Shown here: positions 540 through 58,447 of the stretch, in pieces
Numbering within the stretch: position 1 is the first letter of the stretch
Layout of the letters: the number at the start of each line of letters is the position of its first letter
Assembly: GCF_003986955.1 (NCBI RefSeq)
Contig: NZ_PIPN01000003.1
Coordinates: forward strand, 310,001-374,000
Length of the DNA: 64,000 nucleotides
Source: Aliidiomarina sedimenti
GTDB lineage: Bacteria > Pseudomonadota > Gammaproteobacteria > Enterobacterales > Alteromonadaceae
Reading direction: 5' to 3'
Program-made: the position numbers and the translations under genes
Notes under the pieces: generated by a model
What the model was told of the DNA's origin: nothing
What the model saw: only the letters and a program-made list of their open reading frames with translations
The model's database searches: none

Positions 540-619
540 ATTCAACGTTCAAGCCCCGCGCTCGAATGTTGAATGGGCTGACGAATTCAATGATCAAGCC
601 CCGCGCTTGAATGTTGAAT
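540..619. repeat. Palindromic repeat site A (two direct 35-bp units)
   Basis: Two 35-bp units lie at 540-574 and 585-619, separated by 10 nt. Each has a 15-nt left arm beginning ATTCAA and ending AAGC, the centre CCCGC, and a right arm beginning GCTYGA and ending TTGAAT, so each could form a hairpin with a 5-nt loop. Both units here have the CCCGC centre, meaning the same orientation. They follow the stop codon of the RmlD-like gene by four bases. No T-tract follows, so they do not look like classical intrinsic terminators. Confidence 0.9.
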
Positions 620-728
620 TCGTTGTCTTTTGGTGGGAGTTGCTTAGAATAGCGGTAATATAAGAATAAACACACATATCAGGATGTTGCGCGCGGTTAT
701 CAGGTCGTGGCGCTGGGGTAGAATAATT

Positions 729-3700
729 ATGAGCAAGCTGCTGTCACGCTTTGCTCGGGTTGCGCTGTTTGCGTGTCTGAGTGGTTCCTCTTTGTCTGTT
801 GTTGCAGCGTCGGGCGCTGAAAACGATGCAACACCGATGTCCAATAACATGGCCAAAGTCGCCGGGGGTGAACATTTTACCCTGGTAGTGCGCGACGACG
901 GCAGCATCTGGTCGATTGGCCGGGGTGGCCGACACGGACAGGGCTCTGACAGCGTCAGCGACCTCAAACCTATTATTGGGCCATCAGGCGCCACCTATGT
1001 CAGCGCGGGCAGCGAACACAGCTATGCGTTGCTTAACGATGGTAGCGTACTAGGATGGGGCAACAACTACTACGGCCAGCTTGGCGACGGCACTCTGTCG
1101 ACCCGCAACTATCCTGTTGAAGCCATTCTTCCCGATAGCGAAAAGGCCGTCGCAATCGCAGCGGGGCACGACTTTGGCCTACTACTGACTGACACAGGGA
1201 CAGTCAGGGCATCCGGCTACAATGCGAACAACCAGCGCGCCAATGCCGCAGATGCCTGGGGCGCGATTCAGTTTCCGCCTGAAGCCGCCAGCATTACCTA
1301 TATTGCTGCTGGCTACCGCCACGGGTTGGCGTTGGACGACAATGGCGTTGCCTGGGCCTGGGGTAGTAATAGCGATGGCGAGCTCGGCAATGCCGCGGCC
1401 GCCAACCCACAAGCCGAGCCAGTGCGGGTGGACCTTCCGACCGACCGTCGTTTCATACAGGTGGCAGCGGCCTACAGTACCAGTTATGCACTGGATGAAA
1501 ACGGCATTGTATGGTCGTGGGGCAATGATATCAGCGGGCTGGGGCGATCGGGCAGCGGCGCACCCGCGATGCTGACGCATCCGGAATTGAATAACATCAC
1601 ATCAATCCATGCCCGCGGAACCGATGATGTGGATGACGGCGTTTTGTTTATGGCGCGGGACGACAGCACGGTTTGGGCGCTCGGTAACAACAGCGACGGT
1701 CAACTCGCCAGTGGCAACACCGTCAGCACCCGCGATGCTGTGCAAATGCGCTTTGAGAACGTCACCCCCATTGAGTTGCAGCTGGGTTATCGCAGTGCCT
1801 ATGCAGTTGTGGATGACCAGCGGGTGTTTGGCTGGGGTTCGAACCATCTGAACTACAACATGCTGGCGCAATCAGATCGATCTATGCATACGCTGCCGGT
1901 TGCGTTGCGCGGCGAAAGTATATTTTCTGATGGTTTTTCGCGGACCGCGCTGACAGACAGAGATCTGCCGTACTACGTGCATTTCCACGGGTTGCAAAGT
2001 GGACAGGACTCCGGGTCATCCACGCCCACATGGCGACATCGCAGGGATGATCTGGCGGTGCCGGCTCTGGAAGCTGGCGGGCAAGCCAGCTTTAGTGTGA
2101 GCGGAACCTTCAACGCCGGTGGCATACTCGGGTTTACCGTGACAGAGGATGAGGCGGCGGGAACCCTTACCCTGTATGGCAATGACGAAATATTATGGGA
2201 CTCGCAGCAGCTAAGCAGCGCAACCCAGCGGGTTGAGATTGAGCTTGTAGAAAAGGCTCAGCGAGAGTTGCGTTGGCACTGGCAAGCAAGCAGTGATCAT
2301 GCTGCCGCAGTGGTTCAGGTGTCTGAGTTATCACTTCCGGCCGGGGAGTTGTCGCTAACCAGCAGACCAGCAGTGTACCTAACCTATTTCAATGGAATGA
2401 ACCTGGAAGCAACCATTTATCGTATCGACAGCTCGTCAGATGCCTGGCTGGAAACGCGCCAGGCCGATACTGACGGCGGTGCTACAGACTGGACTCAGGC
2501 CGAGGGTCGGGTGGACTGGGTGAACGATGTTCCTTATGAATTCAGTCACACTCTGGTCGATTTAAGTTGTGGCAACAAGTATCAAGCCCGGGTAGCCGTG
2601 CGCAACCGCACTGGCGGCAACGTTGCCTATTCCGGGGTGAGCGAGGTGGCAACGCTTGGCTGTGACAGCGCCTGGTTAAGCGAGCCTGAAGTAGGCGGCA
2701 GCCAGGTTGCCGCTTATGTCGACATCGACAAATTTCTTGATGTGACTCCGGATTTCAGTGCCGAAGCTTACTATCAGGGCAGTAGCGATGGGCAACCGGT
2801 TGAGGTCAGTTACGATCAAAGCAGTCAGGCGCTACTGATCAGTCAGCTGGAGTGTGAGAGCAGTTTCGACCTCCGCGTGACTGCACAATTAGAAGGCTTT
2901 TCACTAACCAAAGACTTCAGTGACTTAACCACAAAAGGCTGCAATGCAGGCTACGACATTCGTGGTGGTGACAGCTTTGAGGAGGGGGAAGTGGATGCCT
3001 GCTTCATTGCCACCGCCGCCTTTGGCTCTCTACTTGACCCGAAAGTCAGCGTGCTACGCGAGTTTCGCGACCATGTTTTGCGTGGCAATCGGGTAGGCGA
3101 TGCCTTTATTGCCGGTTACTACAAATTCTCGCCGCCGGTTGCTGATCAGGTTCGTCAGCACGGCTGGCTGGCCGCGCTGATCCGGCTGTTACTACTGCCA
3201 CTGATTGGGTTTGCCTGGCTGGCGCTGCATATGCCCTGGCTGTTGGCCGTTGCGCTGATAGCCAGCGTCGCGGTCGCGGTACCTAAACTGCGCCGGGCTT
3301 TGCTAGCCGCGGCGGCTGTGGTCACCCTCAGTGCCTGCGCATCCGGGCCCAGCGATACATTTGAAGCCGAGCAATATATGCGCACGCAGATGGAACGCTT
3401 CGCTGAGGAGCAGGGTTTTAACTATGGCCATGGCGTCGGCATGGACCAGGAAGAAGCCATTCAGAATGCGCGTTACCGGCTGGCCGAGCAGGTCCTTGTG
3501 AGCGTGCGCAGTGAATCTGAGCAGCGTGTTCGCGAGGGAGATGAAGGTTTAAGCGCATCGTTCACCCGTGCGGTCTTCTCGTGGAGCAATGTGCAGTTAG
3601 AAAATGTACGCATCGATACTGCCGAGCAACATGGCGATGGCTGGTATGCGCGGATGAGTATGACCGACCGTGACCTGCGCCGTTCTATAGAGCGGGCGCA

Positions 3701-5324
3701 CCGCATTGCGCCGGCGCTGGATAAGGTGTTGCAGTTAGAACGCACGGCCGCGGATGAGCCGTTGCGGCGTCTGCGCCGTGCGCTTGAAGGTCTGGCTGTG
3801 GTAGCGCGCGATAGCGTGGGGGCGGAAACATTCACCACCGCCGACGGGCAGTCCGCAACCTTTAGCAACTATTTCCAGGCGCAGGTTGAGACTAGCGTAC
3901 GGGCGATGCGCGTTCTTCCTTTATTGCAGGCGAGCGGCGATGGCTACCGCTTTGTGGTGATCGACGATGCCAGTCATCGTCCTCAGCCAGGCGCGGCGAT
4001 ACTGATCAACGGTGAGGAAGTGGTCACCGATGCCTCGGGTGTCACAAAGACGATCAGCAGTGATGCCCTGGGCGAGGCGTTTGACGTCCATATCCTGGGC
4101 TATGGTCGCGACGAGGATACGGTGCTGTGGGTGCATCCGCAGCTTGAATTAATGCACAATGCGCGGTTTGCCCGCAGTGCACTTGAACGTAGCTCAAGCG
4201 CCACGTTGTACATTTACAAAAATCCGGATGACGCCAACATTATCCTTGATGGTAGATCCCAGGCGGCGCCACGGGTACTCGAAGTGGAAAGTGGCCGCAC
4301 GTATAAAGTTTCCGCCGAACTGAATACTCACCGTAGTCAGCAGCAACTATTGGAAGTGCCTAAGGGCGCGGCTTTCGTGTTTCTTGATTTCCGCTTGCAG
4401 GAGCGTGAGTACGGCGGTATGAGCCTTAGCACGGAAGGGCGCGACGGGCGGTTCAAAATTTATCGCAATGGTCAGCTAGAGCTCACCACCGAAAGCAATG
4501 CGGTGAACCAGGATTTTGAAGTGGGTGAGTACCTGGTGCAGATTGGGCATTTACAGCGTGATGAGACGTTTGATCCGGATTACCAGCTGATTGAGGACAG
4601 GTTTCATGTGACGCAGGATGGGTTGGTCGAGCATCAGTACGTGGCGCCGGCCTATCGCAGTCCGTTTCACGAGGGATGGCGTTTTAATTTGCTGCAAACG
4701 CGCAGCGGCGGGCAGCCTGAAGACGGTTTCAAGATCCCATGGGTGCGGGGGCGTGACATTGGGTACGGCGATTTGCGTGCTATTGATAGTGTGCGGGCTG
4801 TTGATTACGTGAGCCCGGACGGCGACTTCGAGCTGCAGATTCAGAGATACTTTAACCGACTTAATTTCAGTACCCAGTTTAGCGCGGGTACGCGCAGTCA
4901 CCGCATGCGCATAACGCGGGACAGCATCGGCCGACCGGTGGAACTGGAACTGGACGCGCTGGTGGCAACCGCGGGTGTTGGCTTCTGGTACAGCGCCTGG
5001 AACGATTCAATAGTGTCTTCGGTGACGGTTAACTACGCCGCTGAGATAAATTCCTGGAGCGATGCAAGCCGGGCCGAAGTTCAGATGGAGCCGGGTGGGC
5101 CCTGGGAACGCCTGTCAGGTGGCAATACCTTCAATAGTTACGCGTTTTTGGAATTGAATTCTCACTTCAGCCTTGGCGGCGGTTTCGGCTTGACCTTTGC
5201 CTTTCAGACACCGCTTGAAGGCGTCGAGCCGATGTTCCGCTTCGGTATCGGCTACACCGGAATGAAGCAAGGCTACCGCATCCCAGCGAGCGTCGACGCC
5301 CAACGCGGACGCCACCGCCGCTAA
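729..5324 (+). CDS. Giant secreted protein: RCC1 repeats, CFI-box segment, LPP20-like lipoprotein region
   Basis: This is a continuous 1531-residue frame. I start at ATG 729, which has GGGG ten bases upstream and a signal-peptide-like N-terminus (MSKLLSRFARVALFACLSG); an in-frame ATG at 684 has a poorly spaced ribosome site. Residues about 35-400 are RCC1/BNR-type beta-propeller repeats, with recurring G-WGxN-xGQLG patterns. A beta-sandwich-like region follows. Near residue 758 is CFIATAAFGS, the signature of CFI-box C-terminal domains, followed by hydrophobic segments. Such proteins normally end about here. Instead the frame continues through MPWLLAVALIASVAVAV (Met at residue 835) to LSAC, a lipobox with Cys near residue 870, then an LPP20-like domain, a PEGA-like stretch (SATLYIYKNPDDANIILDG) and outer-membrane-like strands. 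It looks like two neighbouring genes fused in frame. Function unknown; surface display is inferred. Confidence 0.8.
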   Translation: MSKLLSRFARVALFACLSGSSLSVVAASGAENDATPMSNNMAKVAGGEHFTLVVRDDGSIWSIGRGGRHGQGSDSVSDLKPIIGPSGATYVSAGSEHSYALLNDGSVLGWGNNYYGQLGDGTLSTRNYPVEAILPDSEKAVAIAAGHDFGLLLTDTGTVRASGYNANNQRANAADAWGAIQFPPEAASITYIAAGYRHGLALDDNGVAWAWGSNSDGELGNAAAANPQAEPVRVDLPTDRRFIQVAAAYSTSYALDENGIVWSWGNDISGLGRSGSGAPAMLTHPELNNITSIHARGTDDVDDGVLFMARDDSTVWALGNNSDGQLASGNTVSTRDAVQMRFENVTPIELQLGYRSAYAVVDDQRVFGWGSNHLNYNMLAQSDRSMHTLPVALRGESIFSDGFSRTALTDRDLPYYVHFHGLQSGQDSGSSTPTWRHRRDDLAVPALEAGGQASFSVSGTFNAGGILGFTVTEDEAAGTLTLYGNDEILWDSQQLSSATQRVEIELVEKAQRELRWHWQASSDHAAAVVQVSELSLPAGELSLTSRPAVYLTYFNGMNLEATIYRIDSSSDAWLETRQADTDGGATDWTQAEGRVDWVNDVPYEFSHTLVDLSCGNKYQARVAVRNRTGGNVAYSGVSEVATLGCDSAWLSEPEVGGSQVAAYVDIDKFLDVTPDFSAEAYYQGSSDGQPVEVSYDQSSQALLISQLECESSFDLRVTAQLEGFSLTKDFSDLTTKGCNAGYDIRGGDSFEEGEVDACFIATAAFGSLLDPKVSVLREFRDHVLRGNRVGDAFIAGYYKFSPPVADQVRQHGWLAALIRLLLLPLIGFAWLALHMPWLLAVALIASVAVAVPKLRRALLAAAAVVTLSACASGPSDTFEAEQYMRTQMERFAEEQGFNYGHGVGMDQEEAIQNARYRLAEQVLVSVRSESEQRVREGDEGLSASFTRAVFSWSNVQLENVRIDTAEQHGDGWYARMSMTDRDLRRSIERAHRIAPALDKVLQLERTAADEPLRRLRRALEGLAVVARDSVGAETFTTADGQSATFSNYFQAQVETSVRAMRVLPLLQASGDGYRFVVIDDASHRPQPGAAILINGEEVVTDASGVTKTISSDALGEAFDVHILGYGRDEDTVLWVHPQLELMHNARFARSALERSSSATLYIYKNPDDANIILDGRSQAAPRVLEVESGRTYKVSAELNTHRSQQQLLEVPKGAAFVFLDFRLQEREYGGMSLSTEGRDGRFKIYRNGQLELTTESNAVNQDFEVGEYLVQIGHLQRDETFDPDYQLIEDRFHVTQDGLVEHQYVAPAYRSPFHEGWRFNLLQTRSGGQPEDGFKIPWVRGRDIGYGDLRAIDSVRAVDYVSPDGDFELQIQRYFNRLNFSTQFSAGTRSHRMRITRDSIGRPVELELDALVATAGVGFWYSAWNDSIVSSVTVNYAAEINSWSDASRAEVQMEPGGPWERLSGGNTFNSYAFLELNSHFSLGGGFGLTFAFQTPLEGVEPMFRFGIGYTGMKQGYRIPASVDAQRGRHRR

Positions 5325-5487
5325 TTCAACGATCGAGCGCGGGGCTCGAATGTTGAAAAGGGGTGGATTCAACGATCAAGCCCCGCGCCTGAATGTTGAA
5401 AAGGGGTGGATTCAATGATCAAGCCCCGCGCCTGAATGTTGAAAAGGGGTGGATTCAATGATCAAGCCCCGCGCTTGATCATTGAAT
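5324..5487. repeat. Palindromic repeat array B (four units, exact 43-bp period)
   Basis: Four 35-bp units start at 5324, 5367, 5410 and 5453, exactly 43 bp apart, with an 8-nt linker AGGGGTGG or a close variant. The first unit has centre GCGGG (inverted); the other three have CCCGC. The first base of the array is the final A of the TAA stop of the giant RCC1 gene. The last unit overlaps the end of the convergent acyltransferase gene and supplies its stop codon. The array fills the whole gap between two convergent genes, so a role in separating converging transcripts is possible (inference). Confidence 0.92.
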
Positions 5488-9037: not shown

Positions 9038-9856
9038 CTAGTTTTTGTCGCCTTTGCCTTTGCCTTCGCTTTGCAGCCGCTTTTTCAGTACGTCCATTAA
9101 GTCGATCACATTGTGTTCTTCCTCGGACTGGTGCTCAGACTGATCATCGGCATCCTGAATAACATCCTTGCCTGACTTCAACTTGCGTTTAATCAGCGCC
9201 ATCATGCGTTTGCTGGCGGTGTCGGCAAGCTCTTTGCGGCTGATGTCTTTCTCACTGAGTTTTTTAATCTGGCTGGTGAGCGATTTAACCAGTTTACTAT
9301 CAACTTTCTCAGGCTCGGCTATTCCCATGTCGGAGGGGGAGCGCAGCTCATCCGAAAAACGCATGGTTTCCGCACGTAAGATCCCGTCTTCAGCAAGAAT
9401 AGCGACCAGATACTCTTTGCCTCGCATCACCACCGTAGCCACCCCAGCGCGCTCGGTTTCCTGCATGGTATGGGCCAGCAGACGATAAGCCTTAATCGCG
9501 CCTTCATCCGGGATAAGAAAATAGGCGCGCTCAAAAAACATCGGGTCCAGGGTGTCCAGTGGCACAAACCGGCGCAGATCGATTTCGCGTGATTTTTCCG
9601 GTTCCAGCGCGTCGAGCTCGTCCTCGCTAACCTCAATGTATTTGTCTTTTTCAATTTCATAGCCGCGCACCAGATCGTCGCGGGTTAGAATTTTGTTTTC
9701 TTTGCTGCAAAAGTAGCGACGGGCCAGCGGGGTGCCGTCTTGGTCCAACATCCGTAACCGAATTTGACTGCTGCGGTTGGCAGTAAACATACTCACAGGC
9801 AGGCTCACCAAACCAAAGGCGATGGTGCCGGACCAGAATGGGCGGGTATCAGGCAC
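9038..9856 (-). CDS. ku: Ku protein, first of two paralogues (distal gene of NHEJ operon)
   Basis: The 272-residue product is a bacterial Ku homologue. It begins FWSGTIAFGLVSLPVSMF, typical of the family, followed by the central RYFC...RGYEIEKDKYIEV segment, the EIDLRRFVPLDTLDP block and a core helix containing MRGKEYLVAI. Bacterial Ku forms a ring dimer that binds DNA double-strand ends and recruits LigD. The C-terminal tail is highly charged and ends with a Lys/Gly-rich stretch, comparable to tails that bind LigD or DNA. The start at 9856 overlaps the end of the upstream ku gene by eight bases, so the two are translationally coupled. It is the last gene of ligD - zinc finger - ku - ku. Confidence 0.95.
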   Translation of the reverse strand: MPDTRPFWSGTIAFGLVSLPVSMFTANRSSQIRLRMLDQDGTPLARRYFCSKENKILTRDDLVRGYEIEKDKYIEVSEDELDALEPEKSREIDLRRFVPLDTLDPMFFERAYFLIPDEGAIKAYRLLAHTMQETERAGVATVVMRGKEYLVAILAEDGILRAETMRFSDELRSPSDMGIAEPEKVDSKLVKSLTSQIKKLSEKDISRKELADTASKRMMALIKRKLKSGKDVIQDADDQSEHQSEEEHNVIDLMDVLKKRLQSEGKGKGDKN

Positions 9857-10625
9857 GTTTGCGCTCCTTTTTTAAACTGGCTTCGAGTGCTTTTGCAAGA
9901 TCTTTGGATGGTGCTTTGCGCGGCGCGCGGATCGCTTTCACTTTTCCGCCTGACGCCTTGGTGTCTATCAGCTGTAACACCTGTTCGCGGTAGTTGTCAT
10001 GGTAGGCGTCCGGATCAAAGTCCTCGGCTAACATCTCCACCAGTTGGTGGGCCATTTCCAGTTCGCGCTTATCCAGCTCAGAACCACTGGGGGCGTCGAG
10101 GCTTTCCAGCGCCACCACTTCGTCACTGTAGCGCAGCGCAATCAGCATCAGGCGTTTGTTGTGCACACGCAACGCGCCCTGGTACTCTTTTTTGCGCATC
10201 ACCCAGCGTGCAAAGCCTTCCTTGCCGGATGTCTCCAGCGCCTTTATCAGTGCTGCGTACTCTTTGTCTGACTCATCCGGGCCAAGGTAATAGGGGCGTC
10301 GATAGTAACGGTGGTCGATAGCATCGACCGGCAAAAAGCATTGCATAGTAATATCACGCGACTCGTCTGGTTCGGCGTTATCCAGCTCATCTGGGGTGAA
10401 CATCACCAGGTCGCCTTCATCGGAAAAGTAACCGCGACGAATGCTGTCTTTTTCCACCACCTTATCGGTTTCCGGGTTAACCATGGCCTGGCTGACCGGC
10501 GCGTGATCTTTTTTATGCAGCAGGCGAAAATGGACGTCCCGATCTTCAATGGCGGAATACAGTTTTACCGGTATTTCGGCATTGCCCATACGGATAACCG
10601 CTTTCCACATCGCTCGTGCAGCCAT
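9849..10625 (-). CDS. ku: Ku protein, second paralogue
   Basis: A second bacterial Ku of 258 residues, clearly diverged from its neighbour. It begins MAARAMWKAVIRMGNAEIPV and keeps the family landmarks RRGYFSDEGDLVMF, DITMQCFLPVDAIDHRYYRRPYYL and MRKKEYQGAL. The C-terminus is Lys/Arg-rich. Two adjacent ku genes suggest a heterodimer or division of labour, as described for rhizobial and some pseudomonad multi-Ku systems (family knowledge); which pairing occurs here is unknown. The ATG at 10625 overlaps the stop of the small zinc-finger gene in a TAATG junction, indicating one operon with tight coupling. Confidence 0.95.
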   Translation of the reverse strand: MAARAMWKAVIRMGNAEIPVKLYSAIEDRDVHFRLLHKKDHAPVSQAMVNPETDKVVEKDSIRRGYFSDEGDLVMFTPDELDNAEPDESRDITMQCFLPVDAIDHRYYRRPYYLGPDESDKEYAALIKALETSGKEGFARWVMRKKEYQGALRVHNKRLMLIALRYSDEVVALESLDAPSGSELDKRELEMAHQLVEMLAEDFDPDAYHDNYREQVLQLIDTKASGGKVKAIRAPRKAPSKDLAKALEASLKKERKRA

Positions 10626-10831
10626 TAGTTGTCTCCTTTGGGTTTTGTTTTGGCATCAGCCTCAGCCTGGCATTGCGAACACAGCACGCGCCGCTGTGCG
10701 TAATCGGTCACGATGCAGGACGCACACAGCGGGCGGTCACATTCGGCGCAGTAGTAGCCACATTCAGCATAGTAGGACACTTCGCAAAACGGACAGGATT
10801 CGGGCCCTGCGTCACTCCACCAGGCGCTCAT
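10625..10831 (-). CDS. Small zinc-finger protein inside the NHEJ operon
   Basis: A 68-residue protein rich in paired cysteines: CPFC near residue 13, then CGYYCAEC, CASC and CSQC. At least eight cysteines are spaced like a two-site zinc ribbon or B-box-like finger, and the tail is Lys-rich. I do not recognise a named family. The gene overlaps ligD by ATGA at its start and the downstream ku by TAATG at its end, so it is almost certainly co-translated with the NHEJ genes. The coupling and DNA-binding-like fold suggest an accessory factor in end joining, but that is inference; it could also be a generic metal-binding protein. Confidence 0.8.
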   Translation of the reverse strand: MSAWWSDAGPESCPFCEVSYYAECGYYCAECDRPLCASCIVTDYAQRRVLCSQCQAEADAKTKPKGDN

Positions 10832-13440
10832 TTTTTGTCCTCCATGCTACGCATCGCTTTCGCGGTTAGTTTAGTGCGCGCGTCCCCGTAATCGTGCCAG
10901 GGGTCCTGCCGCAAGGCGATTAAGCGACGGCGCAGGTTTTTAACTGAGTACTGATCCGGGCTCAGGCTACTGTTGACCTCATCCCAGCGAACCGGCACAG
11001 CCACCGGGGCCCCGTCGCGGGCGCGGGCAGAAAACGAGGCGACCGCAGTTGCACCGCGACCATTGCGCAGATAGTCGAGAAATATCCGGCCTTTGCGTTT
11101 TGCTTTAGACATCGTGGCTGTCACCCGTTTCGCATCATCCCGCACATGCGCTTTAGCCACGCCGCGGCAGAACGCTTTGATCTCATCCCAATTATAGTTC
11201 GGAACTATCGGCACCACTAAGTGCAGCCCCTTGCCGCCGGTGGTGCGGGGAAAACTTTGCAGCCCCAACTCCTCGAGCCGGCCTCTTAAGTCCCGGGCAA
11301 TTTCAAATACCTGCGACAGCGGTACTTCCGGCGATGGGTCGAGGTCGAAAACCAGGGTGTCCGGATGTTCAATATCGTCAATTGTGCTGCCCCAGGTATG
11401 AAATTCGAGCGCGCCAATCTGCACCAATGCGATAATGTCCGACAGGCTCTCCACATACAGGTAGGGTGACTCACCGCTGGAGTCTTCAATCATAATGCGC
11501 GGGACTTTCTTGCTGACGGTACTACCGGGATGCTTCTGAAAAAAACACTGTTTGGTGTGGCCGCCCGGGCAGCGCACCAGCGACAGCGGGCGGTGTTGCA
11601 AATGCGGCAGGATCCAGGATTCAATGTCGGCATAGTACTGGGCCAGCTCGAGTTTGGTGATGCCTTGTTCGGGATACAGCACTTTGTCCGGGCTCGATAA
11701 GGTGACACCGGCAATTTGTGGTCGCTTGTTAGTCGCTTTGGCTGGCGCCGAGTTGGGCTTGCTTTTGGTCTTGGTTTTGGTCGCGTGCTCGTTATCTTGC
11801 GGTTCGGCGGGCTGTTCAGCCTCACCCAATGCGGCGGCTGGTAACTTAACGTCTTTCGCCGACTTGTCGTCACGCAAGCCCTGAAAAGCCGGGTGGCGCA
11901 ATACACCATCCCGGGTCCAGTTGCTAAACTCGATTTCGGCAATCAACGACGGCTTCACCCAGTGCACCTTATCTTCCCCGGGTGGGTCTTTAAACGGGCT
12001 TTTTTTAACGCTGAGTTTTTCCAGTTTGGCGGTTAAGTCGGTGAGTGTTTTGCGGGTAAAGCCCGTGCCGACTTTGCCTGTGTAGCGCAGCGTTTTGTTG
12101 TGCCAGGCACCGAGCAGAAGTGCGCCAAACCCCTTACGGCTGCCTTTAGGCTCGGTATAACCGCAGATAAGAAATTCGTCGCGGCCACTGCATTTTACTT
12201 TAAGCCATTCACGATTGCGGCCCGAACGGTAGGGGCCATCGGCGCGTTTGCAGATAATCCCCTCAAGGCCGAGGTGGCCAGCATGCTCGGCGAATTCGGG
12301 GCCCTGACCGTGAACATGGTCGGTGTAGCGAATCAAACCGCTGTCATCAATTCCACTGGCCAGCATCAGTCCGTGCAGAGCGCTTTTGCGGGCGGTGAGA
12401 GGCGTCTTACTCAGATCGTACCCGTCAAGGTAGCAGATATCGAAAAGCTGATAGCTTAGATTACGGGTTGAGCCTGACGAGAGCGCCTCCTGCAGGTCAG
12501 CAAAGTTAGTGGTACCGTCCTTTTTGTAAGCGACGACCTCGCCGTCTAACAGTGCCTGGTCGCAATTAAATGATTCTAAGCTGGATGCCAATTGCGGAAA
12601 TTTCCTGGTCCAGTTTTTGCCGTTGCGGCTGAACAGGGTGACGCTGCCCTTATCCAGGTGGGCCATAATCCGGTAGCCGTCAAATTTGATTTCATGGATC
12701 CAGTCGGGGCCGTCCGGGGCTTTTTTTCGCAACGTGGCGAGGGCTGGTTCAGGCTTTTTAGGCAGAGCTTTTTTGCTTGCCCCGGGTAGCTTGCTTGGGT
12801 CCGGGGCGCTGCTTTGTTCTTCAGGGTCCTGTTGTGGGGCTGGTTCGTCGTTGGCGATCTGCTCCATGCTGCGACCAGTTTTGACGCTCAGGTCGTGAAC
12901 CTCGGAATGCTCGCCGTTTTTGTCACTGCGCTTGATAAGTAGCCATTGATTCTGTTTGCTCTTTTTAGTTTTTCCGCTTGAAGGCCGTCCCGAGGTACGA
13001 ATTAACGACCAGGCTCCGCGCAGCTTTTCGCCGGCAAGAACAAAGTCGATGCGATCGGCAGTCACCGCCTCTTTGCCCTTCTTCTCAAATGGAGTCCAGT
13101 GGCCACAGTCCCAGAGCATCACCGTGCCACCGCCATACTCTTCAGCCGGAATGGTGCCTTCGAAGGTGCCATATTCAAGCGGGTGGTCTTCCACTTCGAC
13201 TGCCAGTCGTTTTTCACCGGGCTTTAAACTTGGCCCTTTCGGCACCGCCCAACTTTTATAAACCCCATTCAGTTCCAGGCGCAGATCGTAATGCAGGCGC
13301 GACGCATCGTGCTTCTGAATAACAAACGACCCGCCTGGTTCCGCTGGTGTGTCAGCGCTCTGCACGTGATTTTGCGCCCCAGCAGGTTCCAGCGTGCGGT
13401 TAAAGTCGCGTTTACCGCGGTACTCTTTTAAACGTTCCAT
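10828..13440 (-). CDS. ligD: ATP-dependent DNA ligase LigD (phosphoesterase-ligase-polymerase)
   Basis: The 870-residue protein has three domains in Pseudomonas order. The N-terminal 3'-phosphoesterase (about residues 35-190) contains HDASRLHYDLRLE, with His44, His50 and Asp52 as expected metal and active-site residues. The ATP-dependent ligase (about 225-535) has nucleotidyl-lysine motif EIKFDGYR, Lys252. The polymerase/primase domain (about 580-860) has the acidic pair in FDLDPSP near residues 699-701. A charged, low-complexity linker (about 540-575) joins the last two. LigD trims, fills and seals DNA ends brought together by Ku. It is the first gene of the operon with the zinc-finger and two ku genes. 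The promoter should lie in 13441-13573, which also holds repeat site C and faces the Fur-controlled operon. Confidence 0.96.
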   Translation of the reverse strand: MERLKEYRGKRDFNRTLEPAGAQNHVQSADTPAEPGGSFVIQKHDASRLHYDLRLELNGVYKSWAVPKGPSLKPGEKRLAVEVEDHPLEYGTFEGTIPAEEYGGGTVMLWDCGHWTPFEKKGKEAVTADRIDFVLAGEKLRGAWSLIRTSGRPSSGKTKKSKQNQWLLIKRSDKNGEHSEVHDLSVKTGRSMEQIANDEPAPQQDPEEQSSAPDPSKLPGASKKALPKKPEPALATLRKKAPDGPDWIHEIKFDGYRIMAHLDKGSVTLFSRNGKNWTRKFPQLASSLESFNCDQALLDGEVVAYKKDGTTNFADLQEALSSGSTRNLSYQLFDICYLDGYDLSKTPLTARKSALHGLMLASGIDDSGLIRYTDHVHGQGPEFAEHAGHLGLEGIICKRADGPYRSGRNREWLKVKCSGRDEFLICGYTEPKGSRKGFGALLLGAWHNKTLRYTGKVGTGFTRKTLTDLTAKLEKLSVKKSPFKDPPGEDKVHWVKPSLIAEIEFSNWTRDGVLRHPAFQGLRDDKSAKDVKLPAAALGEAEQPAEPQDNEHATKTKTKSKPNSAPAKATNKRPQIAGVTLSSPDKVLYPEQGITKLELAQYYADIESWILPHLQHRPLSLVRCPGGHTKQCFFQKHPGSTVSKKVPRIMIEDSSGESPYLYVESLSDIIALVQIGALEFHTWGSTIDDIEHPDTLVFDLDPSPEVPLSQVFEIARDLRGRLEELGLQSFPRTTGGKGLHLVVPIVPNYNWDEIKAFCRGVAKAHVRDDAKRVTATMSKAKRKGRIFLDYLRNGRGATAVASFSARARDGAPVAVPVRWDEVNSSLSPDQYSVKNLRRRLIALRQDPWHDYGDARTKLTAKAMRSMEDKK

Positions 13441-13483: not shown

Positions 13484-13564
13484 ATTCAACGATCAAGCGC
13501 GGGGCTTGAACGTTGAATCTGCCGCCTGAATTCAATGATCAAGCCCCGCGCTTGAATGTTGAAT
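13484..13564. repeat. Palindromic repeat site C (81-bp composite, inverted pair)
   Basis: Two 35-bp units, 13484-13518 (centre GCGGG) and 13530-13564 (centre CCCGC), flank the 11-nt linker CTGCCGCCTGA. That linker is the exact reverse complement of TCAGGCGGCAG found at sites D and E, so the whole 81-bp module is the same element in opposite orientation. Unlike most other sites, this one lies between two divergent 5' ends (ligD and the Fur-boxed operon), 10 bp from the Fur box. Confidence 0.92.
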
Positions 13565-18989: not shown

Positions 18990-20128
18990 GGCGGTTTGTT
19001 TGTGGTGTTGCATTGCTTGGGGTGTTGGCCGGGGCGGTTGCCGCTGAAGCTGAAAGTGGTGCTAATGTACGGCAGTTTGCAGATGGCTTTAGCAGCGCAG
19101 ACTACCTGCAGGCTCAGGATGCGTGGCCGCCTTTGCATCCGCAGGCTTTAGATGATGTGCGGGCCGTGCCCGATTCGTCGGGGGTTGATGCGTTGTTAGC
19201 GGAACTTGGAGAGCAGCTGTTCTTTGACCCGGGGCTATCAGGCGATGGCAGCGTCAGCTGTGGTAGTTGCCACCGGCCTGAGCAGCACTTTGCCGATAGC
19301 GACAAGCTGTCGCCCGGTGTCGAAGGGCGATTAGGCAAGCGCACCACGCCGATGCTGCGTTTAGTTGAACACTGGGACGTGCTGTTCTGGGACGCTCGGG
19401 TGGATAGCCTGGAAGCGTTGGTGGAGCAGCCACTGACCGCGGCGCATGAAATGAACAATAGTACAGAGGCGGCGGTGGAGTATGTGCGTGGCCAACCGCG
19501 TTATGTTGAGCAGTTTGCGGCAGTGGCCTTCGGCGATGGTGGTTCAGGTCATGTTGCTGAAGCAAATAATACCGACAGCGAAGACGTCAGTTGGTGGCAT
19601 ATTGCGCGTGCGATAGCGGAGTTTATGCGCAGTATTGAAGCGCCCGAGCGACCGTTCGACCATTTTATGCGTGCGGTGGCCGCCTCGGACTACGCGGCGG
19701 CGGCTGAGGTATTCACCGCTGAGGAGATAGAAGGCCTGCACCTGTTTCGTGGTAAAGCCGGCTGCGTGCAATGCCATAGCGGGGTTTTGCTGTCAGATCA
19801 GCGACTGCACAATATCGGCCTGACTTACTATGGTCGACGACACGAAGATCTGGGCCATTACCTGATAAGCGGCGAAGCCAGCGACGTCGGCAAATTCCGT
19901 ACGCCGTCCTTACGCTACCTGGGCGAGCGCAGCCACTTTATGCATAACGGGCTGTTTAACGACCTGCTCGGTATTATCCGCATGTACAGCCACGGCGGAG
20001 CAAGACCGCGGCCACGAGGTGAGCAGGTCGACGACCCGCTGTTCCCCGTCACCTCCGAACTACTGCAACAATTCCCTTTAACCCCCGACGAAGAGCAGGC
20101 GCTGCTCGCCTTCCTGCAAACCTTGTGA
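18983..20128 (+). CDS. Di-haem cytochrome c peroxidase family protein
   Basis: The 381-residue product has an N-terminal signal sequence and two c-type haem sites: CGSCH at residues 93-97 and CVQCH at about 261-265. The pattern, including FDPGLSGDGSVSCGSCH and a downstream KFRTPSLRYL, is that of the bacterial cytochrome c peroxidase/MauG superfamily, located in the periplasm. Members either reduce hydrogen peroxide or oxidise substrates, as MauG and MbnH do. Co-transcription with a TonB-dependent receptor under a Fur box suggests a redox step linked to metal acquisition rather than general peroxide defence (inference). GTG 18983 overlaps the receptor gene. The stop TGA shares its last base with a palindromic repeat. 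Confidence 0.92.
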   Translation: MVRRFVCGVALLGVLAGAVAAEAESGANVRQFADGFSSADYLQAQDAWPPLHPQALDDVRAVPDSSGVDALLAELGEQLFFDPGLSGDGSVSCGSCHRPEQHFADSDKLSPGVEGRLGKRTTPMLRLVEHWDVLFWDARVDSLEALVEQPLTAAHEMNNSTEAAVEYVRGQPRYVEQFAAVAFGDGGSGHVAEANNTDSEDVSWWHIARAIAEFMRSIEAPERPFDHFMRAVAASDYAAAAEVFTAEEIEGLHLFRGKAGCVQCHSGVLLSDQRLHNIGLTYYGRRHEDLGHYLISGEASDVGKFRTPSLRYLGERSHFMHNGLFNDLLGIIRMYSHGGARPRPRGEQVDDPLFPVTSELLQQFPLTPDEEQALLAFLQTL

Positions 20129-20208
20129 TTCAACATTCAAGCGCGGGGCTTGAATGTTGAATTCAGGCGGCAGATTCAATGATCAAGCCCCGCGCTCGAT
20201 CGTTGAAT
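20128..20208. repeat. Palindromic repeat site D (81-bp composite)
   Basis: Units at 20128-20162 (centre GCGGG) and 20174-20208 (centre CCCGC) flank the linker TCAGGCGGCAG. The first base of the module is the A of the TGA stop codon of the peroxidase gene. Arms and linker match site E almost base for base, and match site C in reverse complement. Confidence 0.93.
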
Positions 20209-20251: not shown

Positions 20252-21613
20252 ATGAAGCGATTAGCTTGGGTGGTTGGAACGTTGCTGGCGAGTGGTGTTG
20301 CGGTGGTGGCATTGGCGGAGCAGATGACTGCGCAGCAGTCGGACCCACAAGAGCTTGGTTGGATGCAGGGGTTCCCGCCGCCGGTGGATAAACGCATTAT
20401 GCAGCCGGAATCTGACTTTTTTAGTTTTCCTAAATTGCGCTGGACGGTGTGTCACATTCGTGAACTGATGCCGACCACACAAGTGTCACGCGGATTAGCT
20501 GCGCCCTCTTCTTTGGACTACGCAATGCCAGACGCAGCTGAAGAGCGGACCGGAACCGACGTGGAGACCATGGTTAACCCGATACTGCGCGATGAAATCA
20601 ATAACCTGACCTTTACCCCACTCAATAGCGAAACTGAAATGAGCTGGCGCGAGTCGCTGGATGCAAATTACACCGATGGCCTCCTGGTCATGCATAAGGG
20701 GCAGGTGGTGTATGAGTACTATTCAGGGTGCCTGGATGAAAGCCGACAGCACGCTGCGATGTCGATGACGAAATCGCTAACCGGGCTACTGGCGGAGATT
20801 CTGGTCGCCGAAGGCACGTTGGATGACACTGCTCGGGTCGATACAGTAGTGCCTGAACTTGCCGGCAGTGCGTTTGGTGACGCCACAGTGCGGCAGGTAA
20901 TGGATATGACAACGGCGCTGCAGTTGAGCGAAAACTACGCCGACCCGAATGCCGATATCTGGCAGTATTCGCGAGCAGCAAGTCCATTGCCGAAGCCTGC
21001 TGATTACAGTGGACCGAATGGCTATTTTGATTATCTGCAAACGGTAGAAAAAGACGGCGAACACGGCGAGACGTTCGGTTACAGGACCGTAAACTCAGAC
21101 GCGTTGGGCTGGATTATCTCCCGTACAAGTGGCGACGCTGTCAGCACCCTATTATCAGAACGGATATGGCAGCATATCGGCGCAGAACAAGACGCCTACA
21201 TGACGGTGGATGCGCTCGGCACCCCGTTTGCTGGCGGTGGTTTAAGTGCTGGGTTACGTGACCTGGCTAGAATCGGTCAGTTGATGCTGAATCAAGGCCA
21301 AGCCGGCGATCGCCAGGTGTTCCCGGCTGATGTGGTAGCGTCAATTGAGGGCGGCGGTAATCAAGAAGCCTTTGCCAAAGCTGGATACAGTACCTTGCCT
21401 GGCGCCAGTTACCGCAGCATGTGGTGGGTGTTGCACAATGAAAACGGAGCCTATGCCGCACGTGGCGTACACGGGCAAACTATCTACGTAGACCCCACCG
21501 CTGAAATGGTGATCGTGCGTTTCGCTTCCTTCCCCCAGGCTAGCAACAGCCTGATAGATCCCACGTCCTTACCTGCATATGCCGCATTGGCAGATTGGTT
21601 GCTTCAACGGTAA
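20252..21613 (+). CDS. NylB-like serine hydrolase (beta-lactamase fold)
   Basis: The product of about 453 residues begins with a signal peptide (MKRLAWVVGTLLASGV) if translation starts at ATG 20252, which has AGGTGG five bases upstream; GTG codons at 20243 and 20246 are alternatives. The class C beta-lactamase-type SxxK motif is SMTK (Ser near residue 171). YRTVNSDALGWIISRTSG and HGQTIYVDP match the pattern of 6-aminohexanoate-dimer-hydrolase-like (NylB/COG1680) proteins. These are periplasmic or secreted esterases or amidases of varied specificity, so the real substrate is unknown. The gene stands alone between repeat sites D and E, suggesting its own promoter. A single ATTATC half-site upstream is too weak to call Fur control. 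Confidence 0.85.
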   Translation: MKRLAWVVGTLLASGVAVVALAEQMTAQQSDPQELGWMQGFPPPVDKRIMQPESDFFSFPKLRWTVCHIRELMPTTQVSRGLAAPSSLDYAMPDAAEERTGTDVETMVNPILRDEINNLTFTPLNSETEMSWRESLDANYTDGLLVMHKGQVVYEYYSGCLDESRQHAAMSMTKSLTGLLAEILVAEGTLDDTARVDTVVPELAGSAFGDATVRQVMDMTTALQLSENYADPNADIWQYSRAASPLPKPADYSGPNGYFDYLQTVEKDGEHGETFGYRTVNSDALGWIISRTSGDAVSTLLSERIWQHIGAEQDAYMTVDALGTPFAGGGLSAGLRDLARIGQLMLNQGQAGDRQVFPADVVASIEGGGNQEAFAKAGYSTLPGASYRSMWWVLHNENGAYAARGVHGQTIYVDPTAEMVIVRFASFPQASNSLIDPTSLPAYAALADWLLQR

Positions 21614-21693
21614 TTCAATGATCAAGCGCGGGGCTTGAATGTTGAATTCAGGCGGCAGATTCAATGATCAAGCCCCGCGCTCGAATGTTGAAT
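21613..21693. repeat. Palindromic repeat site E (81-bp composite)
   Basis: Units at 21613-21647 (centre GCGGG) and 21659-21693 (centre CCCGC) flank the linker TCAGGCGGCAG. The module begins with the final A of the TAA stop of the NylB-like gene, the same placement as at site D. The two sites bracket that gene. Confidence 0.93.
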
Positions 21694-23519: not shown

Positions 23520-23554
23520 ATTCAATGTTCAAGCCCCGCGCTTGAACGTTGAAT
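23520..23554. repeat. Palindromic repeat site F (single unit)
   Basis: One complete 35-bp unit with CCCGC centre and nearly perfect arms lies directly upstream of the Shine-Dalgarno sequence AGGAG (23556-23560) of the next gene. A hairpin here would end two bases before the ribosome site, so it could influence translation of the gene starting at 23567. Confidence 0.9.
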
Positions 23555-54203: not shown

Positions 54204-54211
54204 CCTCCCGC

Positions 54212-54246
54212 ATTCAACGATCGAGCGCGGGGCTTGAACATTGAAT
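54212..54246. repeat. Palindromic repeat site G, first unit
   Basis: One 35-bp unit with GCGGG centre begins eight bases after the gfcC-yjbH stop. A 10-nt linker TGAGGCAGGC and then ATTCAAT (54257-54263) follow, looking like the start of a second unit that is cut off by the terminator hairpin at 54265. Confidence 0.9.
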
Positions 54247-54264
54247 TGAGGCAGGCATTCAATT

Positions 54265-54301
54265 AAAAACCCGCTTCAGCCCAGGCTGAAGCGGGTTTTT
54301 T
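54265..54301 (+). terminator. Strong intrinsic terminator at the end of the polysaccharide locus
   Basis: AAAAACCCGCTTCAGCC pairs with GGCTGAAGCGGGTTTTTT with a minimal loop, giving a stem of about 16 bp ending in a T run. It closes transcription of the long locus that begins at the JUMPstart element. Confidence 0.95.
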
Positions 54302-54316
54302 GTATCTGGAGATAGG

Positions 54317-54351
54317 ATTCAACGATCAAGCCCCGCGCTTGAATCTTGAAT
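54317..54351. repeat. Palindromic repeat site G, second unit
   Basis: A 35-bp unit with CCCGC centre lies between the terminator of the polysaccharide locus and the terminator of the convergent metalloprotease gene. Its right arm carries one substitution (TCTTGAAT instead of TGTTGAAT). Confidence 0.88.
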
Positions 54352-54475: not shown

Positions 54476-57400
54476 CTACAGCTGAACCCGCAGTACTTCT
54501 TTCCCTTGATACAGGACCTGAACGTCGCGGATGTCATAGGCTGGCAGACGCACGTTGAAGTAACCGTTGGTTTGGCTGTCGTTTTCAGACGTTTGCTCGA
54601 TGGCAAAGTTGCGCTCGAATGTCTGGCCGTTGCTGTCGGTGGCGATCATTACGAAAGGTCCGTAGTTTTCACGACCGGCTGGCTGGCTCAGTTCAGAGTG
54701 ACTGAGTACCCGGCTGTTGCCGTTCACCTGGTCAATGACACCACTGACGTAGGTGCTGTAGGTTGGTTGCGATAAAACTGTGCTATCGAACGCCTGCGCT
54801 GCGGTGAACGGTTGTGGTGCATTGATTGCCAGGTAATCTTGTGCTTTCTCGTAGACCCAGTCTGAGATTAAGCGAGGCGAGCAATAGCTCATGAGATCTT
54901 TGGCGAGGTCTGGGGTGTAGAGTTGACTATGGTCATAATTAATGAAAATACTACCCATCTGGTCTGTCGGGTAGGGGTAATTCATCTCAATCTGTTCAGG
55001 GCTACCACAGTCAATGTGACCCAGGCTAAAGTTGTGGCCTAGTTCATGAGCAAAGGTGTTAAGATTTGAATCCCAACTAACACCAACCAGCCCGGAAATG
55101 AAGGCTACGCCTGAAGCATTTTTATTATTCAGGGCTTCGATATCAAAAAAACCGTGATAATAGTGCTGAGCGCCTTCCTGAGTGTGAAGATCACGCAAGT
55201 TGTAGAGTATATCCAGGATAGCGATATCGCCGCCGGCGTCTGAAACGATAACCGGGCTACGGCGTTCAATTTCCACTTCGCCGACCGGCCAGTATGTCTT
55301 TATGGTTTCAGCCAGTTCTTCGTCAGACGGGATAGTTGGAGCGACTCCGTTTACAACCATTGGTACGATAGTGATGGAGAGAGTCGTCGGGTCGGCAAAG
55401 GCCGGTTCAGCTGTATAAATCAGGTCACCGTCGAGAGTAAAATCGATTTCCAGGCCTTCTTCCATAAATTGGGCCGGGATTATCAGTTGATAACCAGAAC
55501 CTCCGTCTTCATAAACAGGCTCGGCAGGAATTGATGCAGGTGTTGTGAAATTACCATTTGCAACAGGTGAACCATTCAGGCGTAGCTCTGCAGTCATAGG
55601 AAGCGCAGTCGGTTCGCCATCGGCAATCACGTGAGCCCGCAGCATAGCGCTGCGACCAGGCACCAGATATGGGTTAGTTTTAAAGACGGTCTGTCCCCAC
55701 TCAACGGCGGCCAGGCGCAATTGCGTGCTGTCGTTCGTACTAACTACTTCCTTGGTAAGACCAACTTTTATCGGATCAGGAAATAGCCCGTCATTGAGGT
55801 ACATATCGACCGTCTGCACGTCAAAGTCGACAGTCATGGTTTCATTACCAATCGTACCGCAAGTCGGTATCTCAGCATCAGCAATACGCGGTTGCTGCTT
55901 GTGCAGATTGTAGTGAAGCTCGCACGAGACATCACCGTGATTATCGAAAAGCATCCAATCTACGCTAAGCTGGTCGGCATTGAGGGTGGCATTGAAAAGA
56001 TCACCGAGATTATTATAGTAATCATCAGGAAGCGGACACATGTCCCAATTTGAACGGCTACCGATATTGGTATGAACACCGAAGCCTTCCAGATTATTTT
56101 TGGCGTTCTGAGTTACCGGTTGCTCGAGACTGGCACAGCCACTTACGCTAAAACTCGCTTCAGGCCGGTGGACGAGCCCTGAATCCAGTGCCGGGCGAAT
56201 ATCAAGAACGCCTGTATTGCTTAAGTTTAGCGTAGTCAGATGGCTATACGTATGCATGAAATCGATACGCTCAAGGCCCCGGCTGTTGCTTAAATTCAGG
56301 GTTCTAAGCTCAGACAGCGGACTAAGGGCGCTCTCGTAATCGCTCTGCGATGCTTCAAAAAAGGTTAATTCCAGATGTTGCAGTGGCATCGCTTTGAGCG
56401 GCTCGAGATCTGCCGGGCCGCTGTACTGAATTTTCTCGACTTTAAGTGTAGTCAACGGCAGCGTAGCTAAAGGAGCCAGGTCTGCTGCCAGGGTGCGGAA
56501 CGAGAGTGAGGTCAGGTCGAGGGCCGCCTGAATACCATCCAGGTCAAGCACTACGGCGGGGCTGTTAAGCAGATCGACAGATTCTACTGAAGCGACCATT
56601 GCTGCGGTCATATGCTCTTCTGGTTCAATGCTCAGCGCGTTGCGGAACGCTCTCACCATGTGGTTGCTGGCAAAACTATGCTCGTCTGCAGCAAGAAACA
56701 GGGCAGAGAAGTGACAGTTGTCGAAGACGGTAATGGTGACTGAATTTCCGTCCCGTTCGAAATCGCAACTTGCTGAAGACGGCTGGAAGCGAACAAGCTC
56801 ACGGCCCTCGCCAAATGCTTCAAGGTTAACCGTGACCTTTTCGCCGTAGCTGAACGCGTCTGTGCTGCGGTAGTTGCCGTCAAGCTTAGCCCGGCCGTTG
56901 ACGATGTCTGCACTGATTTCGTAGCCGGCAGAGGACCCTGGAGGCGTAATAGTAAGAACCAGATTACAGTCCTTTAAGATAGGTGCCGTGGTCAGGGTAA
57001 AGTTAATGTTATTCTGTTCGGTTGCCGTATCAATCTTGCAACCTGAGCTGCTGTTCAGGGTCCAGCCAGGACCTGGCATGGTTAATTCGAAGGTTTGTTC
57101 TTTGTTGTAGTCAACGGTTACTGACTCGGGGCTGATAGTGGGCATATTATCAGCGCTGACCTGATGGTCTCCGAAGTCAAATTCTGTGGTCAGTTCAAGG
57201 GTTCGGGTCTCGAATGATGCCGTGACCTGACAGTCAGCGTTTACTTCCGCGATGTTATAGGTGCCGCCGCTTAACTGGCCGTTACACCCTGAAACCTGGG
57301 CAATTTGATAGCCGGTCAACGGGTCGATAGTAAAGCTGGTGGACTCACCCGCGTTAACGGTTCGTTGTTCGGGTGAGATTGAGCCACCCTGGCCTGCAGA

Positions 57401-57520
57401 GGTTGTGACGGTGTAACTGGTGGAACCACCATCATCGTCTCCACCGCCGCCGCAAGCGACGAGGGTAAGGGCCAGCGTCGAAGCCAGTATGGCTCCCAGT
57501 AAAGGTTTAGTTGTGTACAT
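54476..57520 (-). CDS. Lipoprotein zinc metalloprotease with leucine-rich repeats (copy 1)
   Basis: From ATG 57520, 10 bases after the upstream stop, the product is 1014 residues with lipobox LVAC and a Gly/Asp-rich linker. N-terminal region: YTVTTSAGQGGSISPEQRTV, a bacterial (InlB B-like) repeat module. Middle: leucine-rich repeat-like LRTLNLSNSRGLERIDF and LTTLNLSNTGVLDIRP. C-terminal third: zinc site HELGHNFSLGH (His near residue 825) with a Met-turn-like DLMSYC, the metzincin pattern (M66/M12-like). A longer frame from 57619 would overlap the lipoprotein gene and lacks a signal sequence. It is probably a surface protease acting on host or environmental proteins. Closely related to copy 2. 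Confidence 0.86.
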   Translation of the reverse strand: MYTTKPLLGAILASTLALTLVACGGGGDDDGGSTSYTVTTSAGQGGSISPEQRTVNAGESTSFTIDPLTGYQIAQVSGCNGQLSGGTYNIAEVNADCQVTASFETRTLELTTEFDFGDHQVSADNMPTISPESVTVDYNKEQTFELTMPGPGWTLNSSSGCKIDTATEQNNINFTLTTAPILKDCNLVLTITPPGSSAGYEISADIVNGRAKLDGNYRSTDAFSYGEKVTVNLEAFGEGRELVRFQPSSASCDFERDGNSVTITVFDNCHFSALFLAADEHSFASNHMVRAFRNALSIEPEEHMTAAMVASVESVDLLNSPAVVLDLDGIQAALDLTSLSFRTLAADLAPLATLPLTTLKVEKIQYSGPADLEPLKAMPLQHLELTFFEASQSDYESALSPLSELRTLNLSNSRGLERIDFMHTYSHLTTLNLSNTGVLDIRPALDSGLVHRPEASFSVSGCASLEQPVTQNAKNNLEGFGVHTNIGSRSNWDMCPLPDDYYNNLGDLFNATLNADQLSVDWMLFDNHGDVSCELHYNLHKQQPRIADAEIPTCGTIGNETMTVDFDVQTVDMYLNDGLFPDPIKVGLTKEVVSTNDSTQLRLAAVEWGQTVFKTNPYLVPGRSAMLRAHVIADGEPTALPMTAELRLNGSPVANGNFTTPASIPAEPVYEDGGSGYQLIIPAQFMEEGLEIDFTLDGDLIYTAEPAFADPTTLSITIVPMVVNGVAPTIPSDEELAETIKTYWPVGEVEIERRSPVIVSDAGGDIAILDILYNLRDLHTQEGAQHYYHGFFDIEALNNKNASGVAFISGLVGVSWDSNLNTFAHELGHNFSLGHIDCGSPEQIEMNYPYPTDQMGSIFINYDHSQLYTPDLAKDLMSYCSPRLISDWVYEKAQDYLAINAPQPFTAAQAFDSTVLSQPTYSTYVSGVIDQVNGNSRVLSHSELSQPAGRENYGPFVMIATDSNGQTFERNFAIEQTSENDSQTNGYFNVRLPAYDIRDVQVLYQGKEVLRVQL

Positions 57521-57530
57521 AAGGTCTCGC

Positions 57531-58226
57531 TTAGCGGTTAGATTTGAGCTGTACTGCAAACACAGGGTTGCGAAGGTTAATTCGCAGTTGTGCGTGGTTT
57601 TCTTCGATAGGATCGACACATAACGGGCTGGAGGTGGATTGCTGCTGTAATTGCAGTCGACCCTGCTCGCTGACGGTCAGTAGTGAGGCCTGTTCAAAAA
57701 GCTGATCAGGCCAGGTTAAACAAAGCTGGTTTTGTGCGCTGTGCACGGGGGTTGACTCAGTTGTGAGTTTCACCGTCGGCAGCCATTGCCCAATTGCAGG
57801 GAGTGGATGCTCGTTTTCGATGATCTGCAGCTGGGTGTCGTTTTTATATAGGGTGAGCTGGCGAACTGGTAAGTCAGCCTGTGCGACCGCCAGGGTAAAA
57901 TGCGACGGGCCTGTTGCCACCTCGTTGACAGTGACTGGCTGCCGTTCAGTGGCGTCATTAATTCGCACCCAGTACTCGTTATTACCACTATTTGAGCCAC
58001 TCTCAGTCGCTGCTTGCGATGATTCCAGTAATGGAGTGGCAAGATGCAAGTCCCATTGGTCAGGTGGATTAAAAACGCCACTGATCTGAATGCCGTTGGC
58101 TTCGTGTACAGGCGCGAAATCGCTGCTCTGGTCGGTCGCTTCGGTTGGGCTTGAATGAGTACAGGCAGTTAGCACGGCGGTTAACGCACATGCAAGGATC
58201 GGTTTAAGAGTCGATTGTGTAGGCAT
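57531..58226 (-). CDS. Small lipoprotein of the metalloprotease cassette (copy 1)
   Basis: The 231-residue product has a lipoprotein signal (lipobox LTAC, Cys near residue 22), then a mainly beta-rich region with ISGVFNPPDQWDLHLATPLL and NEYWVRINDATERQPV, and a basic end LRINLRNPVFAVQLKSNR. I do not recognise the family. It is immediately upstream of a metalloprotease gene, and the same pair recurs at 58462-62182. A chaperone, inhibitor or surface partner of the protease is a possible role (inference). Confidence 0.8.
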   Translation of the reverse strand: MPTQSTLKPILACALTAVLTACTHSSPTEATDQSSDFAPVHEANGIQISGVFNPPDQWDLHLATPLLESSQAATESGSNSGNNEYWVRINDATERQPVTVNEVATGPSHFTLAVAQADLPVRQLTLYKNDTQLQIIENEHPLPAIGQWLPTVKLTTESTPVHSAQNQLCLTWPDQLFEQASLLTVSEQGRLQLQQQSTSSPLCVDPIEENHAQLRINLRNPVFAVQLKSNR

Positions 58227-58379
58227 GAATTAATTCCATTTAATTTAGGCTCAGATAATAACCAAATGCCACCCATAAAAGAATAGTTCTTATGCTATAG
58301 CTCGTAGCCCGCTAGGATTATGGACAACTAGTAGGTTTCGCAGTGAAATGTAAATTTTGTGTTAATGTTCGGGTGCTGA

Positions 58380-58447
58380 ATTCAACATTCAAGCCCCGCG
58401 CTCGATCGTTGAATTCAACATTCAAGCGCGGGGCTTGAATGTTGAAT
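58380..58447. repeat. Palindromic repeat site H (two abutting inverted units)
   Basis: Units at 58380-58414 (centre CCCGC) and 58413-58447 (centre GCGGG) overlap by two bases, forming a head-to-head pair without the 11-nt linker. The site begins 14 bases downstream of the copy 2 metalloprotease stop (minus strand) and lies upstream of copy 1, separating the two cassettes. Confidence 0.92.

Follow-up and report, generated by a model that had tools for sequence, protein, structure and literature searches.

A 64,000-nt stretch of the Aliidiomarina sedimenti genome (hereafter the window; positions 310001-374000 of contig C4 in the source genome G000, which has 2.85 Mb in 10 contigs) carries a family of 35-bp palindromes that we consider very probably to be repetitive extragenic palindromic (REP) elements, organised as REPINs (REP doublets) and as arrays resembling bacterial interspersed mosaic elements (BIMEs). 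On this reading they are the non-autonomous partners of a REP-associated tyrosine transposase (RAYT) and have spread mostly near its gene. Judged from sequence, this would be a REP/REPIN family of a RAYT that falls, by its motifs, into an unusual subclass, and individual copies of the repeat show clear signs of constraint. The initial annotation reported that the window contains no RAYT; this holds for the window itself, yet a Y1/HUH tyrosine transposase gene sits 2.1 kb to its left.

The palindromic units and the transposase gene

The consensus unit is the palindrome ATTCAA NNN TCRAGC CCCGC GCYYGA NNN TTGAAT. All 17 full units that had been annotated at eight sites of the window were recovered at exactly those sites, and their arms and CCCGC loop agree with the earlier description. 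In shuffled windows two patterns of the unit gave 0.06 and 0.08 expected matches, while the window itself gave 18 (nine units, each on both strands) and 17. One further, partial unit had also been annotated; a ATTCAATT stub is visible at about 54257. The sites and the transposase gene are as follows, in window coordinates unless stated:

540..619, + strand: tandem (++) pair of REP units (540-574 and 585-619)
5324..5487, no single strand: four-unit array (-+++) with a 43-bp period, units at 5324, 5367, 5410 and 5453
13484..13564, no single strand: inverted pair (REPIN), units at 13484 and 13530
20128..20208, no single strand: inverted pair (REPIN), units at 20128 and 20174, adjoining the stop codon of the open reading frame (ORF) 18983-20128
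21613..21693, no single strand: inverted pair (REPIN), units at 21613 and 21659, adjoining the stop codon of ORF 20243-21613
23520..23554, + strand: single REP unit
54212..54351, no single strand: inverted pair, units at 54212 and 54317, with a 70-bp spacer
58380..58447, no single strand: back-to-back pair (+-) with a shared junction, units at 58380 and 58413
C4:307057-307929 (window -2943 to -2071): RAYT gene, the single Y1_Tnp gene of the G000 genome (41 bits)

Over a wider region of 204 kb (C4:190001-394000) there are 54 units at up to four mismatches, and a further three minus-strand units, whose right arm is odd, make pairs of what had looked like three single units. An inverted doublet (minus, then plus) is found at 17 of the 27 sites of this region, with a spacing of 45-57 bp in 14 of them and of 43, 65 and 105 bp in the others; tandem arrays with a period of 42-46 bp and two back-to-back pairs are present as well. 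All four stretches that were folded computationally form hairpins as single-stranded DNA, with z between -4.4 and -9.3. For the three triplet pairs, arm-to-arm covariation is slight or absent (P = 0.28, 0.42 and 0.56 for unique sequences; P = 0.034, 0.16 and 0.35 for all copies), so base pairing does not hold the triplets. When one arm is read on the opposite strand, both triplets come mostly from one small set of six, and they combine freely between the arms.

That the family reaches beyond the window was borne out, whereas its proposed role as genome-wide punctuation was not: 27 of the 33 sites in G000 lie within 186 kb of the 2.85-Mb genome (P = 7e-27, for a region picked after seeing the data). 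The repeat core occurs 58 times in the genome against once in a reversed control, and 51 of the 58 cores lie on C4 between 196 and 383 kb. A 33-mer search gave 60 copies at up to two mismatches, 55 of them with none; the rows at three mismatches, among the matches listed, are the same places on the opposite strand. Measured from the RAYT gene, 27 of the 33 sites are at most 115 kb away (P = 2e-24) and eight at most 10 kb. The six sites outside the 186-kb region include two identical sequences at contig ends, which may be one. As REPs and REPINs are, the units are palindromic, multi-copy and extragenic, the last with some ORF overlaps called spurious by judgement: overlaps with script-called ORFs number 18 in G000 and 19 in the related A. 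soli (G067), and we judge them to be ORF ends, starts that look over-extended, doubtful short ORFs (109 aa in both genomes, 82 aa in A. soli) and the 3' tail of the transposase gene.

Repeat units flank the RAYT gene left and right, among them variant partner units at 306918 and 307924, and the last codons and stop of the gene fall inside a variant unit. The 290-aa product ends in a helix-turn-helix (HTH; HTH_23) and carries the NHYH, FQ and Y---NP motifs, which together with the C-terminal HTH would place it, by motifs alone and with reference to Table 1 of PMC6006769, in TnpA_Y1 subclass 2.1. NHYH and residues Y126, N130 and P131 are invariant in all 18 aligned transposases. The protein scores above the cut-off of the Pfam Y1_Tnp model, and a search of solved structures by sequence gave weak, unrelated matches only. 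Between G000 and A. soli the ratio of nonsynonymous to synonymous substitution rates (dN/dS) is 0.066 over 276 codons: the RAYT is under purifying selection.

Arrival in place and constancy of single copies

Repeat abundance tracks the presence of this RAYT, as in REP/REPIN systems. Among 17 genomes of the genus the two occur together in G000 (58 cores) and in A. soli (46 cores), whose RAYT is the closest among the named genomes (97% identical) and whose DNA over the cluster region is mostly 92-96% identical where alignable. The other 15 genomes hold 0-3 cores, as the control does, and a distant homologue of the transposase, at no more than 40% identity, is present in 11 of these 15; 57 further genomes of the family also have 0-3 cores each.

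C4:190-310 kb is largely collinear with the sister species G064, and 224-310 kb with a stretch of G063, some genes being missing, moved or inverted. A comparable outgroup gap could be found for 12 of the 27 sites, and none of the 18 such gaps contains the repeat core. The gap before ruvB measures 139 bp in G000 and 28 and 16 bp in the outgroups, and other gaps measure 85 against 11 bp and 101 against 38 bp. Given a collinear region with repeat-free outgroup gaps, the copies at the testable sites arrived in place.

Within the cluster, by our own tally, 24 of the 27 sites have an orthologous A. soli unit, which in one case is a collapsed pair; a scar marks one further site, and the last two are without alignable flank. 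Four of the six sites outside the cluster also align with an A. soli unit. We infer that the burst of repeats predates the split of the two species, which are about 6% diverged. At the 24 fixed positions of 42 unit pairs, 3 of 1008 bases differ, and all three fall in a single unit that a deletion has cut; of the intergenic bases nearby, 94 of 1528 differ (Fisher P = 9e-18, with bases treated as independent). The triplets differ at 11 of 252 bases and the R/Y positions at 11 of 126; these 42 pairs include a small double count, two G000 units in one tandem array having been matched to one A. soli unit. When all mapped bases of the G000 units are taken, 3 of 1013 differ, and 37 of the 38 fully mapped copies (out of 54) are unchanged, compared with 3692 of 7692 overlapping control 33-mers. 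Spacers within pairs drift (14/188). Conserved bases flank the drifting triplets on both sides, and copying between units therefore does not easily explain the pattern. The simplest reading suggests that the fixed bases stay constant because individual units are under selection; the local rate of mutation may instead be low.

Change between the two species takes the form of pairs collapsed to chimeric singles or scars, altered tandem number, and larger or neighbouring deletions. Within the window, the four-unit array at 5324..5487 has three units in A. soli, the REPIN at 13484..13564 is replaced there by a single chimeric unit at the same place, and at 21613..21693 A. soli has a truncated left unit and no right unit.

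Some gene content also differs beside repeats. The segment at window 9038-13440 (C4:319038-323440), which contains a gene for a LigD-type DNA ligase as well as two smaller ORFs, is absent from A. soli, where remnants of both its ends persist beside a collapsed repeat. Three ORFs at C4:269704-272973 adjoin a repeat pair and are lacking from the corresponding position in A. soli. In G064 they sit between the orthologues of ORFs that G000 has near C4:309000, a place with another repeat pair in G000. Several G000/A. soli breakpoints fall at repeats, and two gene groups are elsewhere in G064. We do not claim that the repeats are rearrangement hot spots, since long gaps would take breaks anyway.

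Competing explanations for the cluster

The initial annotation described the units as REP/BIME-like, directional and extragenic, which stands, and as punctuation between transcription units, which is not supported. In a census of gaps of at least 40 bp over the 204 kb, with ORFs from a simple script, only 26 of 85 gaps carry a repeat, so the units do not separate nearly every gene or operon as had been stated, and divergent gaps bear repeats about as often (5/14) as convergent ones (4/10; 15/51 for ++ and 2/10 for -- gaps). The scarcity of T-tracts noted earlier was confirmed, TTTT occurring within 10 nt beyond the 3' side of 1/54 units and beyond the 5' side of 4/54, and the hairpin followed by a T-tract that defines an intrinsic terminator is not what these units present. 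With few T-tracts and no 3' bias of gaps, terminator-like punctuation is not supported. At six of the 27 sites the last base of a stop codon falls within a unit. The first unit of the array at 5324..5487 includes the final stop-codon base of a 1546-aa ORF. At site 302646 the protein and its G064 counterpart stop at the same residue; the end in G063, and the ends at 304670, differ by a residue or so. For these stop-codon sites a role at translation ends or mRNA 3' ends would be possible.

Such overlaps, the shared protein end at 302646 and the constraint on orthologous copies are the observations that would favour host regulatory or 3'-end elements, serving mRNA protection, translation-end effects or terminator-like punctuation and selected at gene ends, with the RAYT incidental. 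We consider this quite unlikely: convergent or 3' gaps are not favoured, T-tracts are few, just 6 of 33 sites lie outside 186 kb, and among the 17 genomes of the genus the repeats occur only alongside this RAYT. It is more improbable still that the cluster is a block acquired horizontally from a repeat-rich donor, and not a product of local spreading. The near-restriction of the repeats to one region would fit such a block, as would the finding that much of C4:310-333 kb, the polysaccharide locus and 376-394 kb have no counterpart in the G064 stretch examined. However, C4:190-310 kb, with an isoleucyl-type tRNA synthetase gene and ruvB, is largely collinear with repeat-free relatives and 18 of 18 testable outgroup gaps are without the repeat, and a horizontal block was rejected for most of that interval.

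The chromosomal region itself might instead be the cause, if this stretch tolerated or attracted any repeat family, and here the sister species is informative. G064 has a different RAYT, 36% identical, with an unrelated palindrome beginning GGGGTCAGRGCTRAAATTCACCAC, which gives 53 pattern matches in G064 and none in G000, G067, G063 or G070. Of these matches, 42 fall in 278 kb (G064 C1:1132846-1410806), corresponding to 17 of 23 sites (P = 2e-13, for a region picked afterwards and a rounded genome size). This unrelated family thus clusters in a region overlapping the one orthologous to the G000 cluster, as a regional cause would have it. We nevertheless think that cause unlikely, as 6 of the 23 sites form a dense group at most 15 kb from G064's own RAYT (P = 9e-8), two of them flanking the gene, and copies also lie near the transposase in more distant genomes. 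In Rhodocyclus purpureus (G074), 27 of 85 copies of GACCTGACCCC are on the 22.7-kb contig C49 that carries the transposase, and in a Rheinheimera genome (G075) seven of nine motif copies are within about 3 kb of it, part of the copies in both counts flanking the transposase by definition. The region is moreover far from dnaA (about 843 kb in G064, 700-870 kb in G068), and an effect of the replication origin, with oriC assumed from dnaA, was rejected on the basis of these distances of 700-870 kb in G064 and G068.

Several results weigh against REP elements spread by the neighbouring RAYT. The G000 and G064 RAYTs share one broad region of the chromosome, and the G064 cluster overlaps the stretch orthologous to that of G000, so that an effect of closeness to the RAYT is not wholly distinguished from that of a permissive region. 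The nine other genomes with related transposases give a mixed picture: besides the two just described, motif copies near the transposase number 5/9 in G079, 3/3 in G041, 2/8 in G081 and 0/2 placeable in G080, while G076 has 78 matches, many of them, among the matches listed, far from the transposase, and G077 and G078 have 14 matches each. (Up to 108 related-transposase loci were scanned, of which 55 have a 14-mer occurring at least three times; among the matches listed, the top 14-mer contains GGGTCA or its complement at 23 of 45 loci.) Inside the 186-kb cluster, density falls off only weakly with distance once the two sites that flank the RAYT are set aside (P = 0.087), and some outgroup gaps are longer than those of G000 (243 and 269 bp against 128 bp). 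No clear new insertion since the split from A. soli was seen at the 27 cluster sites, and not every copy has been kept, one pair that is intact in A. soli being a decayed scar in G000. The RAYT scores 66.3 bits with the NCBIfam REP_Tyr_transpos model, below the cut-off of 80. Finally, passages of PMC2817692 state that all REPs detected there have a GT(A/G)G head, which in G000 is found within 6 nt on the 5' side of 3/54 units, as its complement on the 3' side of 0/54 and inside 0/54.

A REP/REPIN family spread from the RAYT gene still accounts best for the data. By analogy with related enzymes, the RAYT would recognise a REP or REPIN folded into a hairpin as single-stranded DNA, and would cut and rejoin it; new copies would have landed mostly within about 110 kb of the RAYT gene, between genes. 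We find it doubtful, if less so than the alternatives above, that the HTH-bearing RAYT and the palindromes have been domesticated as a protein-plus-site system, which purifying selection on single copies would have maintained from before the species split onwards and which would provide working sites for the host mostly in one roughly 190-kb stretch, for example as a local nucleoid or mRNA-end system.

Relation to known systems and neighbouring features

The family shares with the REP/REPIN and BIME systems of E. coli, Pseudomonas and Stenotrophomonas, which go with a RAYT (TnpA_REP), the short extragenic palindromes, the inverted doublets and tandem arrays, the flanking of the RAYT by its own repeats and the tie between repeat abundance and RAYT presence. 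Unlike classical REPs, the G000 units are without the GT(A/G)G head, have two freely drifting triplets in their arms and go with a RAYT of another subclass by motifs. Passages of PMC2817692 describe three marine gammaproteobacteria and a Thauera whose repeats gather around the RAYT within a span of about 200 kb at most, as well as four cases in which a BIME has captured the 3' end of the RAYT. Such accumulation close to the RAYT gene is therefore already published (2010, in those passages), which lowers the novelty of this part of our results.

With TnpA_Y1 subclass 2.1 and the TIRYTs (tyrosine transposases with terminal inverted repeats, TIRs) the shared features are NHYH, FQ, Y---NP and the C-terminal HTH, and families of self-complementary TIRs in dimers or clusters; according to passages of PMC3733652, TIRYT genes have TIRs of which some are self-complementary and occur in dimers or clusters. 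Passages of PMC6006769 state that neither automatic nor manual searches gave REP-like sequences for subclasses 2.1 and 2.3. The G000 RAYT departs from that REP-free description, as given in these passages, in having abundant REP doublets. The TIR motif GGGGWSAS, found in some but not all TIRYTs, is not present in the unit, which reads GCGCGGGGCTYGA, where the base after GGGG is C and not W. Intrinsic transcription terminators share with the family a GC-rich hairpin between genes, but the G000 repeats have a T-tract near 5/54 copies at most and no orientation to 3' ends.

It has long been asked whether REP elements are selfish remnants or of use to the host. Here the same copies can be traced in two species together with built-in neutral markers, the drifting triplets and the spacer, against which the fixed bases show constraint and the copies are not homogenised. 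A transposase subclass described as REP-free would gain a clear REP family, and one genus has two unrelated repeat families, each clustered near its own transposase.

Two further features of the window adjoin its last repeat pairs. The spacer of the pair 54212..54351 contains, on visual inspection only, a hairpin at about 54266-54301 that resembles a terminator and has a T run. A large-plus-small ORF pair is present in two tandem copies at 54476-62182 (1047 and 1036 aa for the large ORF, 231 and 231 aa for the small one), and the back-to-back repeat pair lies between them.

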